A stretch of DNA of 64,000 nt from Chryseobacterium artocarpi (GTDB taxonomy: Bacteria > Bacteroidota > Bacteroidia > Flavobacteriales > Weeksellaceae), in the NCBI RefSeq assembly GCF_001684975.1, contig NZ_MAYH01000023.1, positions 62,001 through 126,000 of the forward strand, in the 5' to 3' direction. Positions 58,120-63,953 of the stretch are shown here, one piece after another (positions within the stretch are counted from its first letter, which is position 1; each line of letters starts with the position of its first letter). The notes beneath the pieces are model-generated. The model made no database searches and was not told where the DNA came from. It saw only the letters and a list, made by a program, of their open reading frames with translations. The position numbers and the translations under genes are program-made.

Positions 58120-58303
58120 TTATTAAAATAGATAAAAATCGTATTTATATAAAATTTCCGGATACTATTATGGGGGGTCTTTAAAGAGGCTAAAATGTAT
58201 CGGAAAAATTCATATTTAAATTTAAAAAACAATAAAGCAAATAGCTTTAGTTTTCTTCTTCAAATATTTTTTAGCCTGACTATTTTCTTTAGTCAGGTTT
58301 TTT
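58120..58303 (+). ncRNA. Candidate small transcript, unknown type
   Basis: A plus-strand unit between the promoter at 58083-58113 and the hairpin at 58272-58303, about 180 nt. It contains CCGGATACTATTATGGGGGG and a 47-codon ORF. It ends against the 3' end of the XRE gene, partly antisense to it if read-through occurs. No known RNA family is recognised. Confidence 0.35.
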
Positions 58304-58338
58304 ATGGCTCAAAACTTTCGAATTTTCCGTTTTCGTAG
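58195..58338 (+). CDS. Candidate 47-residue ORF with signal-like N-terminus
   Basis: It encodes a basic start (YRKNSYLNLKNNKAN) followed by a hydrophobic run (FSFLLQIFFSLTIFFSQ) and a short tail (VFYGSKLSNFPFS). This looks like a signal peptide. The ORF runs through the terminator hairpin and overlaps the end of the XRE gene, which argues that it may be the relic of a longer exported protein's start rather than a functional gene. Confidence 0.3.
   Translation: MYRKNSYLNLKNNKANSFSFLLQIFFSLTIFFSQVFYGSKLSNFPFS
58272..58303 (+). terminator. Terminator on the plus strand
   Basis: AGCCTGACTA / TAGTCAGGTT with TTTTCTT loop, then T run. Its orientation fits plus-strand transcription, not the XRE gene. 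Confidence 0.75.
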
Positions 58339-58838
58339 AACAAAACAATACGTTTTATTTTATTTGTTTGATTTCCAATAGCTTGACTTATTATTTCTTC
58401 GGGAGAAATTTCTAATCGCTGAGAATCGGATATTTTTTCTGCGGCTTTACCGGAGGATGGTATAAAGGATTCTCCAGCACTTGTTTGAGGAAGCTCTATT
58501 TCCGCCTCAACAGCTCCAAATTCCTCGTCATTGTTCATCATGGTGAAAAGGTCGGGGAGAGGAGTTGTTCTTACCGTATCTCCTTCAGTTTGCTCTTCAG
58601 AAATTTCAGGAACAGGCAATTCAGATTTCAGCATTTCACCTTCTCCGGTAACTAACCAATCCCAAAGAAGATCCGGGAATCGGGATTTAATTTTTATGAT
58701 AAATTCCAGAGAAGGTTTATTTCTTCCGGACATAATATGTGAAATCGAAGAACGTTGTACATCGATTTCATCTGCAAACTCAGATGGAGTAAGATTGGAA
58801 TACTCTATAACTTTTGAAATTCTTTCGTTTAAACTCAT
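58302..58838 (-). CDS. XRE-family transcriptional regulator
   Basis: A 178-residue DNA-binding protein. The N-terminal HTH_3 domain (about 4-65) has RISKVIEYSNLTPSEFADEI, VQRSSISHIMSGRNKPSLEF and LLWDWLVTGEGEM. The rest is acidic and low in structure (about 70-150), with EQTEGDTVRTTPLPDLF, and ends in KIKRIVLFYENGKFESFEP, a short strand-helix tail that may serve for oligomerisation. No peptidase or phage motif is visible. Its promoter region holds three TTACA-N2-TGTAA-like sites. Confidence 0.88.
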   Translation of the reverse strand: MSLNERISKVIEYSNLTPSEFADEIDVQRSSISHIMSGRNKPSLEFIIKIKSRFPDLLWDWLVTGEGEMLKSELPVPEISEEQTEGDTVRTTPLPDLFTMMNNDEEFGAVEAEIELPQTSAGESFIPSSGKAAEKISDSQRLEISPEEIISQAIGNQTNKIKRIVLFYENGKFESFEP

Positions 58839-58854
58839 AAAAATAAGCCTTTAA

Positions 58855-59800
58855 TTATGTTACAAATGTAAAACATATAATTTACAAAAGCAAATTACAG
58901 ATGTAAATAAAATAATTATTTATAAATATACAATTGTAAATAGTTTATAATACACTATAAAACAATAGTTTATATAATATTTACATTTGTTTTTTAATAT
59001 TGTAATCTATAAATTTAAAAGTACACTTGTGCTAGATTACTTTTATTTTTGATCAATAAATAGAGTTTAATACCTAAATTTTGGATATATAAAAACTTAT
59101 TAGACATCATTTTTTCTAAATAAATTACTTTACAATGTTAATCCACGGATAATAGAGATAAATAAGCTTCAAATTTATAAATACCTTTATTTATTTCATA
59201 AAATCAGTGCTTTACAGGTTAAAACAAATGTAAATTACTTATGTAAACAGCCTAATAAATGTCTTTTTTACAATTGTTTGAAGGTAAATTTCTTTTATAG
59301 TTCAAATTAATTTTTTAATTAAATCTTTTTGTCTTCACGAATCTAAATTTGAACTAAAAATTGATGTTGATTTTAATTTTTTTCAATATTTACATTTGTA
59401 TATCTAAACGAATAAACAACTTTCCCACATTTTGTTTGTTTAAAAAAAATATGCATAATTGGCTTAAAATAGGGAATAATAGACTTCAAGTATAGTTATA
59501 ATTAATATTTAGATAAATTTCATAACTAATTGATTTTGTATTGCTTAAATATATTGTTTTGAATTATTCGCAATCCACAATTTTATCCACAGACAAAGTG
59601 TCTGTATGGCTTGTTTAACAATGTTACATATGTTATAATGTTATAGAATACTAAAATACCTTATGATAACTTTTGTAAATTACATTTCTAAATCGTAAAA
59701 AGTGAGCAAAAATTAATTTTCAGACCCGTTTACATATGTTAATTTAGTTTTTATGCATTAAAATGGTTAATTTTGATTCTTGTAAACTATACTTCGAACA
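58855..59800. promoter_or_regulatory. Gene-free region with a cluster of TTACA-N2-TGTAA-like sites
   Basis: Sites seen by eye (arms against TTACA/TGTAA): 58860-58871 perfect; 58895-58906 perfect; 58928-58939 ATACA-AT-TGTAA; 58981-58992 TTACA-TT-TGTTT; 59222-59233 AAACA-AA-TGTAA; 59235-59246 TTACT-TA-TGTAA; 59268-59279 TTACA-AT-TGTTT; 59390-59401 TTACA-TT-TGTAT; 59624-59635 and 59730-59741 TTACA-TA-TGTTA; 59680-59691 half conserved. More half sites are near 58881 and 59781. The stretch is strongly A+T-rich and no ORF of note is present. Confidence 0.7.
59583..59591 (+). promoter_or_regulatory. Perfect DnaA box
   Basis: TTATCCACA, the E. coli consensus. Weaker 7-of-9 matches are CAATCCACA (59571-59579), TTTCCCACA (59421-59429) and TTATCCGTG on the minus strand (59152-59144). 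A short palindrome, CAGACA-AAG-TGTCTG, follows at 59590-59604. Confidence 0.5.
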
Positions 59801-60910
59801 ATGAACTTTGAACATATTTATTCTCCAAGCCCTGATTTCCCAAATCGCTATATTTCCCCTGAAAAATTATTTTCATACTTACAGACAAATCTCAGCGATT
59901 ATGTTCAGGAGATCGGAAAATCGTTTTTAGATAAACCTATTTATCAGTTAAGCATCGGAACCGGAAATATTCATGTACTCGCTTGGTCGCAAATGCATGG
60001 TAATGAATCTAACGCTACTCATGCTATGTTAGATCTTTTGACGAGTCTTGATAAAGCTCCTGAAATGAAAGAAGATTTATTCAGTAAGATCAGATTAGAT
60101 TTTATCTTTATGTTAAATCCTGACGGTTCTGAAAGATGGACGAGACTGAATGCTGCAGATATTGATCTAAACCGTGATTTTCATAATGAGGCTAGTACAG
60201 AGATTAAATTTCTAAAAAAAGCAGCTGCTTCCAAGAAGTATGATTATGCACTAAACCTTCATGAGCAAAGAACTATTTTTACGACTGACGGTATTCACCC
60301 GGCAACTCTTTCTTTTCTGGCTCCTTCTGAAAATGTAGAACGTACAGTAACAGAGAACAGGAAAAAATGTATGGCAGTAATTGGTAGTGTTTATAATCAT
60401 TTAAAAGAAATGATTCCTAATCAGATTGGGAGATATTCTGATGAATTCTATCCAACTTCGACCGGAGATAACTTTATAAAAGCAGGAATGCCTACCATAT
60501 TATTTGAAGGAGGTCATTTCGTAGATGACTATACAAGAAAAGGTACCCGAAAATATTATACTATCGCTTTATATTATGCATTAAAGGCAATCAGTGAACT
60601 TAATTCTGATACTACAGGTTGGGAAACTTATCTTGAAATTCCGGAAAATCAGGAAACACATTATGATATTATATATAGGAATGTAAAACTGAATACAGAT
60701 CATGAATGTATTTTAGACATTGCTGTTCAGTATAGAGAGATGAAGGAAGAAGGGCAGGAGGATATTTCCTTTGTTCCTTTTGTAATGGAAGCCGGAGATG
60801 TGAAGAAGAGAAAAGGCTGGTTGGAAATAGATTGTACAGGAAAGAAATTTGTTTCAACTAATAAATATCCAAAGCTGGATGCAGTAGTGGATTTTAAAAT
60901 AGAAGATTAA
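59801..60910 (+). CDS. M14-family zinc carboxypeptidase
   Basis: A 369-residue metallopeptidase. Zinc ligands are His66 and Glu69 in HGNE, and His154 in LNLHEQRT. NPDGSERWTRLNAADIDLNRDF is the conserved substrate-binding block, and a catalytic Glu is probably in the FEGGHF segment. There is no signal peptide, so it is likely cytoplasmic; D-glutamate amidase or peptidoglycan roles are known in the family. A small C-terminal domain (about 275-369) is extra. The cluster of palindromes lies directly upstream. Confidence 0.88.
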   Translation: MNFEHIYSPSPDFPNRYISPEKLFSYLQTNLSDYVQEIGKSFLDKPIYQLSIGTGNIHVLAWSQMHGNESNATHAMLDLLTSLDKAPEMKEDLFSKIRLDFIFMLNPDGSERWTRLNAADIDLNRDFHNEASTEIKFLKKAAASKKYDYALNLHEQRTIFTTDGIHPATLSFLAPSENVERTVTENRKKCMAVIGSVYNHLKEMIPNQIGRYSDEFYPTSTGDNFIKAGMPTILFEGGHFVDDYTRKGTRKYYTIALYYALKAISELNSDTTGWETYLEIPENQETHYDIIYRNVKLNTDHECILDIAVQYREMKEEGQEDISFVPFVMEAGDVKKRKGWLEIDCTGKKFVSTNKYPKLDAVVDFKIED

Positions 60911-63512: not shown

Positions 63513-63953
63513 ATGGATACACCAAATTACAGAATGCCCTTCGTACCGTCTACACTAATGACAGAAGGAGGCAGTATCGATACCTGCGATATGGGAGAAA
63601 GTATAGCCCATAATATTATGCTGCTGATCACTACTAAAAAAGGAGAGAACAGATACGATGAAAACTATGGAAATGATGTTTGGAACCTGGAGTTTGATAA
63701 CGGAGTGACAAGCGCCATTTGGGAAAGCGTTTTTATCAAAAGCCTTAGAAGGCAGATCCAGGAATATGAACCGAGGATTGTACAGCCGCAGATAGATGCC
63801 AATATACAATTTGTAGAACACAGCTACGATACTAAAGAACACACCGAAATCAAAAAGAAAGTAAGAATTGCCATCAATGCCAAGATGGAGGAAACAGGAG
63901 AACGTTTCAGTTTTTCAACGGAACTTTTCCTAAGCCCGATGTCTATTGATTAA
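63513..63953 (+). CDS. tssE: GPW/gp25-family baseplate protein (TssE-like)
   Basis: A 146-residue phage-baseplate-like protein. The GPW_gp25 fold is seen: DMGESIAHNIMLLITTKKGENRYDENYGNDVWNLEF, in parts IAHNIMLLITTKKGE, then ESVFIKSLRRQIQEYEPRI. In Bacteroidetes it is a marker of the type VI secretion system subtype iii, where it builds the baseplate at the inner membrane. It runs 24 nt before the next gene. Confidence 0.85.
   Translation: MDTPNYRMPFVPSTLMTEGGSIDTCDMGESIAHNIMLLITTKKGENRYDENYGNDVWNLEFDNGVTSAIWESVFIKSLRRQIQEYEPRIVQPQIDANIQFVEHSYDTKEHTEIKKKVRIAINAKMEETGERFSFSTELFLSPMSID

Follow-up and report, generated by a model that had tools for sequence, protein, structure and literature searches.

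Introduction

The cI-type repressors of phages lambda, 434 and P22 regulate their own genes over divergent promoters, classically through three operator sites, and in the DdrO-IrrE and ImmR-ImmA systems an XRE-type repressor is encoded beside a metallopeptidase gene. The BlaI, MecI and CopY repressors have a winged-helix fold, unlike the helix-turn-helix (HTH) of XRE proteins. To our knowledge, few Bacteroidota transcription factors have a known operator. One described group is the non-canonical LexA of Bacteroidetes, which carries a PF01381 phage-type HTH and recognizes short palindromes, some of them at its own promoter; the LexA of Elizabethkingia anophelis, for instance, binds TTAC-AAATT-GTAA (PMC8565304).

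Here we analyze a locus in Chryseobacterium artocarpi within a window of 64,000 nucleotides (the whole stretch of DNA that was analyzed). A gene for a 178-aa XRE-family regulator (58302-58838, minus strand) is separated from a divergent gene for a 369-aa M14-fold zinc carboxypeptidase (59801-60910, plus strand) by a gap of 962 bp with 20% GC (58839-59800), which holds an array of copies of the palindrome TTACANNTGTAA (TTACA-N2-TGTAA). We propose, with a probability of roughly 0.77, that this array is the operator region of the adjoining XRE gene, that it serves self-repression and that it also reaches the M14 promoter; sequence comparison points to operators of an XRE family that form a local array, are conserved over deep distances and are most likely autoregulatory.

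The closest described systems share parts of this arrangement. As in non-canonical LexA, a Bacteroidetes regulator with a phage-type HTH goes together with short palindromes, including at its own gene, but LexA as described has an S24 peptidase domain and N5 spacers (CTAA-N5-TTAG, GGA-N5-TCC; PMC8565304), whereas the sites here are 12-bp TTACA-N2-TGTAA palindromes; the S24 family is absent from the nine Pfam families matched by 49 XRE sequences. The HTH fold is shared with the cI-type repressors, from which the XRE protein differs in being chromosomal, in occupying one conserved locus, in its short C-terminal hairpin with no cleavage domain found, and in having about seven sites per gap. The adjacency of repressor and metallopeptidase recalls DdrO-IrrE and ImmR-ImmA, although the peptidase here has an M14 carboxypeptidase fold and was not found beside 23 of 80 XRE relatives. 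Neither motif-based nor term-based searches of the literature brought up a publication on this XRE regulator or its operator. The preliminary description had seen a candidate for an undescribed system, and this holds for the member and its operator as far as those searches reached; the kind of system is familiar.

The XRE and M14 proteins

The XRE protein, assigned by Pfam (HTH_3), alignments and an AlphaFold2 model, is composed of an N-terminal phage-repressor-type HTH, a variable linker and a conserved C-terminal beta-hairpin (KIKRIVLFYENGKFESFEP), which ends in ...FESFEP in Chryseobacterium. The model has a mean pLDDT of 68, with the HTH (residues 1-64) and the two-strand hairpin (164-176) in the 80s and the linker at low confidence. 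Its best Foldseek match is 3op9 (E 0.0024), followed by the 434 repressor HTH and others; the matches include the 434 and P22 repressors, DdrO and ImmR, none of them below an E of 0.001. HTH_3 is matched by 49/49 aligned XRE sequences (E <= 0.01), in all of which the HTH residues R29, S33, H34, S37, G38, R39 and N40 are invariant; these invariant residues and the nearly invariant operator described below are mutually consistent.

The divergent protein matches Pfam PF00246, as do 29/29 aligned M14 relatives, and its model (pLDDT 91.4) retrieves carboxypeptidases from E 1.3e-12 at a TM of about 0.54. Residues H66, E69, R125, H154 and E236 are invariant, and we take these to be the zinc and catalytic residues of the M14 family; since the sets match, the peptidase is probably active.

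A dense and local array of palindromes

The repeated near-perfect palindromes of the preliminary description are borne out by our counts: positions 58839-59800 contain two perfect copies of TTACANNTGTAA, six with one mismatch and eight with two, and groups of sites do adjoin both genes, at 58860, 58882, 58895 and 58928 on the XRE side and at 59624, 59667, 59680 and 59730 on the M14 side. Markov models of the gap of order 1, 2 and 3 yielded, among 1000 sequences generated per order, none with eight sites at one mismatch or fewer or with 16 at two or fewer. The density in other A+T-rich gaps had been set beforehand as the test that could refute the array, and it is far lower: 51 gaps with a GC of at most 25% (15,767 bp) hold two sites with at most one mismatch against eight in 946 bp of the array, and the full set of 134 other gaps (49.6 kb, from the window and 385 kb of sampled genome) holds 12, these samples being partly centered on perfect sites, so that their bias runs against the claim of enrichment.

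Across the whole 4.94-Mb, 51-contig genome the motif is not enriched, with 14 perfect copies versus 11 for a reversed-pattern control and 419 versus 422 at up to one mismatch; the enrichment at the array is therefore local. Two of the 14 perfect copies lie in the array and five within ORFs, with no common theme seen. Exact core doublets (TACANNTGTA-N0-29-TACANNTGTA) occur in this genome at the array alone (two, overlapping; none for the control). Among 16 relatives assembled into one or two contigs, such doublets are present at the XRE locus in 12 and at seven places elsewhere, and the reversed-pattern doublet control gave two in total, one each in two genomes. Spacings of 13, 22, 33, 43-44 and 53-54 recur among the sites of the compared gaps, which we do not count as proof of helical phasing because shared descent leaves few independent events. 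The window holds no structured RNA families at gathering thresholds and no tRNAs.

Conservation of the gap and of its sites

The first relatives search found a strong XRE match in 22 of 23 other genomes of the genus, the exception (G021) being a genome 90% complete. The same divergent XRE-M14 pair stands in 21/21 same-genus stretches that cover the gap, with gaps of 801-971 bp; in G019 the gap is cut by a contig end, and the 22 gaps compared are those of the 21 relatives and the present one. Each carries 3 to 12 sites with at most one mismatch (average 7), and as a group the sites have a mean identity of 0.79 versus 0.62 outside them (58839-59639), a level reached by 5/5000 random placements. 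The XRE and M14 proteins are 98% and 97% identical, respectively, to their Chryseobacterium ureilyticum counterparts. Beyond the family, 10/15 genomes from other families of the order have an XRE match, with a divergent M14 gene in six of the ten (32-50% identity for XRE, 35-39% for M14, one to three perfect sites each). The second test set beforehand, absence of the sites from relatives with both genes, likewise did not refute the array: they persist between the two genes in all 21 same-genus gaps and in six pairs of other families. The remaining four loci have no M14 gene in the stretch; the perfect site of L069, L071 and L075 lies at -14 or -24, whereas all sites of L068 within 600 bp have two mismatches.

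The preliminary description had counted about ten copies; the copies are present, but they carry unequal weight. S1 (58860-58871, TTACAAATGTAA), the perfect XRE-proximal site, is identical in 22/22 Chryseobacterium gaps, whereas the sites at 59268, 59680 and 59730 are weakly conserved or lineage-specific, with mean column identities of 0.50, 0.51 and 0.42. Beyond S1 on the XRE side lie S2 (58882-58893, TTACAAAAGCAA), which has two mismatches here and reads TTACAAATGCAA in many relatives, the perfect S3 (58895-58906, TTACAGATGTAA), S4 (58928-58939, ATACAATTGTAA) and S5 (58981-58992, TTACATTTGTTT), with two mismatches here and one in several relatives. The pair AAACAAATGTAA and TTACTTATGTAA, 13 bp apart in the middle of the gap (59222-59246), is moderately conserved (0.73 and 0.64), and toward the M14 gene S8 (59390-59401, TTACATTTGTAT) and S9 (59624-59635, TTACATATGTTA) reach mean identities of 0.96 and 0.89. 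An operator-promoter module before the M14 gene (59624-59786) is double in 11 of the 22 Chryseobacterium gaps, including the present one, where the copies are 106 bp apart, and single in the other 11. The site pair TAACTTTTGTAA and TTACATTTCTAA (59667-59691) lies around the upstream copy of this duplicated module, and the M14-proximal S11 (59730-59741, TTACATATGTTA) belongs to the downstream copy, found in 11/22 gaps.

The sites accompany the XRE gene

We then compared the best 80 of at least 582 confirmed XRE relatives, from Weeksellaceae to records titled Bacteroidales, Spirosoma and Hymenobacter. In 79/80 of them a site with at most one mismatch lies within 150 bp upstream of the XRE gene, perfect in 63, compared with 7/375 control genes of the same stretches (perfect in 1/375); the relatives are themselves related, so these counts are not independent. 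The sole exception among these 80 is L251, with no site within 150 bp. An M14 gene stands divergently upstream in 57/80 stretches, in 11 of the 57 behind a TerC-family gene, and no M14 was found in the stretch for the other 23. The site is nonetheless present in every one of the 23; 18 of them extend at least 3.9 kb upstream and the others are shorter, so that M14 may sit off the contig in some. The autoregulated multi-site operator that had been suggested is supported by this conservation with the XRE gene, whereas the cooperative binding attached to it stands as a possibility.

At a strict cut-off (E <= 1e-12), at least 41 of 296 genomes of a phylum sample match the family. A site with at most one mismatch is absent from the 600 bp before five XRE genes that are more remote (L163, L165-L168), which speaks for the proposed operator. 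Among good matches there are exceptions: L169 (E 1e-37) lacks such a site over the same distance, the nearest site of L158 is at -114, and L074, L156, L159 and L172, although they keep the XRE-M14 pair, show no site in the first 160 bp. The neighbors of the XRE gene vary by lineage. A gene that reads as nucleoside-diphosphate-kinase-like lies convergently downstream of it in L213, L216, L217, L222, L224, L234, L244 and L245, and one that reads as pyrD-like lies downstream in L229, L232, L236, L237 and L243, both names being given by sequence reading.

Overlap with putative promoters

Flavobacterial sigma-A promoters are described as carrying TAnnTTTG at -12 to -5 (PMC9723704). Read in the XRE sense, the proximal site contains this element as TACATTTG inside TTACATTTGTAA, and we accordingly mark a putative XRE -7 promoter box within S1 (58863-58870, minus strand), on the evidence of the sequence, the orientation count and the published box definition (PMC9723704). 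Of 79 relatives, 71 have TAnnTTTG in the XRE sense at the XRE-proximal site (24/24 in Chryseobacterium, 47/55 elsewhere), three have the mirror reading and five neither. On the other side, TAnnTTTG appears in the M14 sense at the M14-proximal site of 19/22 loci (mirror in two, neither in one), these being non-Chryseobacterium loci with M14 less than 1 kb away, where the distance from site to M14 start is approximate because it comes from an alignment. In Chryseobacterium the putative M14 -7 box (59768-59775, plus strand, TAATTTTG; TAAATTTG or TAATTTTG in relatives) lies outside the sites, 26 bp after the last of them, S11. The transcription starts would fall near 58858 for XRE and near 59780 for M14. 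Outside the genus the consensus shows no conspicuous -33 element. Moreover, the start codon of 10/70 loci comes 4-5 nt after the box, an arrangement that would need a near-leaderless mRNA.

Such overlap raises the question of whether the sites are mainly stacked promoters, with TACATTTG a sigma-A -7 box and no repressor involved. The TAnnTTTG within TTACATTTGTAA and the gene-proximal copies that mostly face their own gene speak for this reading. A -7 box, however, requires no inverted repeat, yet the position frequencies show both arms, TTACA and TGTAA, to be kept; furthermore, the centers of many distal sites break the box, and the palindrome is found at only seven of the 375 other genes. We regard stacked promoters as quite improbable.

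From sequence comparison we infer the XRE protein as the binder, its action as dimers, repression rather than activation, the promoter positions and the control of M14. In the proposed mechanism, an HTH dimer would probably bind each TTACA-N2-TGTAA palindrome. Because the XRE-proximal site overlies the XRE -7 box, protein bound there should block RNA polymerase and so bring about negative autoregulation, and because further sites extend as far as M14 on the opposite strand, XRE probably represses that gene as well. Closely placed sites would permit cooperative XRE binding, which is possible across the array.

Alternatively, XRE might bind the array but chiefly activate M14, or bridge its two ends, in place of repressing. 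In Chryseobacterium the sites on the M14 side precede the putative -7 box, a position that fits activation, and the array spans both promoters; against this, the gene-proximal site itself reads as a -7 box in most loci, on the M14 side outside Chryseobacterium as well as on the XRE side, and we consider activation or bridging unlikely.

One elaboration of the proposed operator would make XRE and M14 a repressor-antirepressor pair, in which M14 trims the conserved XRE C-terminal hairpin and thereby opens both divergent promoters. Trimming would weaken XRE dimers or cooperative contacts, and the pair, if real, would be a carboxypeptidase analogue of DdrO/IrrE; we hold this to be a long shot.

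The almost fixed 12-bp site coincides with a flavobacterial -7 box, and one binding assay would annotate the regulator in many genomes.

BlaI-type repressors

The core of the sites, TACANNTGTA, has been reported as that of CopY operators and attributed to BlaI and MecI as well (PMC7253601), and the genome encodes three BlaI/MecI-family members, all outside the window. A repressor of this family could therefore bind the array from elsewhere, with the XRE gene a mere target. The preliminary description was right that the BlaI/MecI/CopY core is present and that no such protein is encoded in the window; the three family members lie elsewhere in the genome. In the cases seen, the outer base pair separates the two classes. 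The ten-base core TACA-N2-TGTA is common to both, but the flanks are C..G at the BlaI genes of relatives and RNYKACANNTGTMRNY for CopY (PMC7253601), whereas here they are mostly T or A, next to an XRE gene. All eight paired sites at four BlaI-type genes of order relatives (Pfam PF03965), genes met via the doublet search and not by random draw, are CTACA-N2-TGTAG; two of the three BlaI genes of the present genome have CTACATTTGTAG or CTACATTTGTAT upstream, and the third has no site with at most two mismatches within 300 bp. Among exact cores, the 206 from XRE loci include no case of C..G as the outer pair (TA in 112, AA in 40, TT in 36, other in 18). Since BlaI-type genes carry a palindrome that is absent from these cores, and since the sites accompany the XRE gene across its best 80 relatives of at least 582, we judge control by a BlaI-type repressor very unlikely. 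The authors of the CopY study regard the ten core bases as necessary and not sufficient (PMC7253601). Given that the outer base pair separated both classes in all cases seen, our comparison suggests that the TACA-N2-TGTA core alone is no mark of a BlaI/CopY target in these bacteria.

The suggested role as origin or partition site

A partition, nucleoid-organizing or replication-origin site had also been proposed for the array, and here the evidence turns against the claim. The gap is long, A+T-rich and repeat-rich, it contains one perfect DnaA box (TTATCCACA at 59583), and in the relative G002 the GC skew, noisy over 20 sampled windows, shows a weak change, being +0.036 at 4.38 Mb and -0.056 at the array. 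A larger skew change in G002, however, lies near 1.9 Mb, and in the window the array has positive skew to its left and to its right. A search of the genome with the parS consensus gave four matches with at most one mismatch, on contigs C45 and C49, two of them perfect on C45 and none at the array. Four perfect DnaA boxes lie within 276 bp on another contig (C34:458180-458455, in L106), a candidate for the chromosomal origin. In six relatives, two of them with two contigs, dnaA lies at about 0.8 to 2.2 Mb from the array with no fixed distance. Finally, the core doublets of this genome are confined to the array and the sites follow one gene. An origin or partition role is thus exceedingly unlikely.

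Two further repeats were seen in this context. The DnaA box of the gap lies in an element at 59572-59604, strongly conserved upstream of M14, in which the 24-mer AATCCACAATTTNATCNACAGACA is followed by the inverted repeat CAGACA-AAG-TGTCTG and which the XRE sites do not explain. This element is conserved in Chryseobacterium and some Kaistella-group loci, and was found in 45/275 loci, several overlapping and all around the present locus; the sampled stretches L077-L125 do not contain it. On C34:345692-346588 (in L122), eight same-strand copies of TTATCCACA follow one another in steps of 111-151 bp, perhaps in a gene with internal repeats.

A probable origin of the long gap in two operator spacers

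The length of the gap finds a likely explanation in the sister genera. An ORF of 347-391 aa lies between XRE and M14 in 11 of the best 80 loci (of at least 582), in Kaistella, Riemerella, Halpernia, Cruoricaptor, Planobacterium and relatives, and all nine of the 11 that were scanned belong to the TerC family (PF03741). The spacer block at 59385-59640 in Chryseobacterium (mean identity 0.76) aligns to the TerC-M14 spacer of these genera, with S8 at the position of their pre-TerC site, and on the XRE side the S1/S3/S4 spacing of 35 and 68 recurs as 34 and 67 in Kaistella-group L198 and L201. Between these flanks, where sister genera have the TerC-family gene, lies a poorly conserved middle of 394 bp (58991-59384), with a mean column identity of 0.53 versus 0.77 and 0.76 in the flanks. 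Spacer homology, XRE-side spacing and poor middle together indicate that the array consists of two operator spacers with no intervening gene, and the gap is unusually long because the two stand end to end.

No credible relic of TerC emerged when a Kaistella TerC was searched by tblastn against 28 gaps (best E 5.3). The only TerC-family match in the genome is a 40% relative, whose gene has no site with at most one mismatch within 500 bp upstream of its assumed start. The M14 tree needs three TerC changes, as a single gain followed by two losses would give, but its well-supported branches force only one, so that a single change is conceivable. The simplest reading is that TerC was lost in Chryseobacterium rather than gained elsewhere.

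Other observations

A perfect TTACATTTGTAA lies 18 bp before a gene in L006 (C12:525749) that we take to be pirin-like and that is a possible second XRE target. Near the window edge, a gene at 63513-63953 carries a GPW_gp25 baseplate-wedge domain (Pfam), a hint that a phage remnant or a contractile injection system may lie past that edge.
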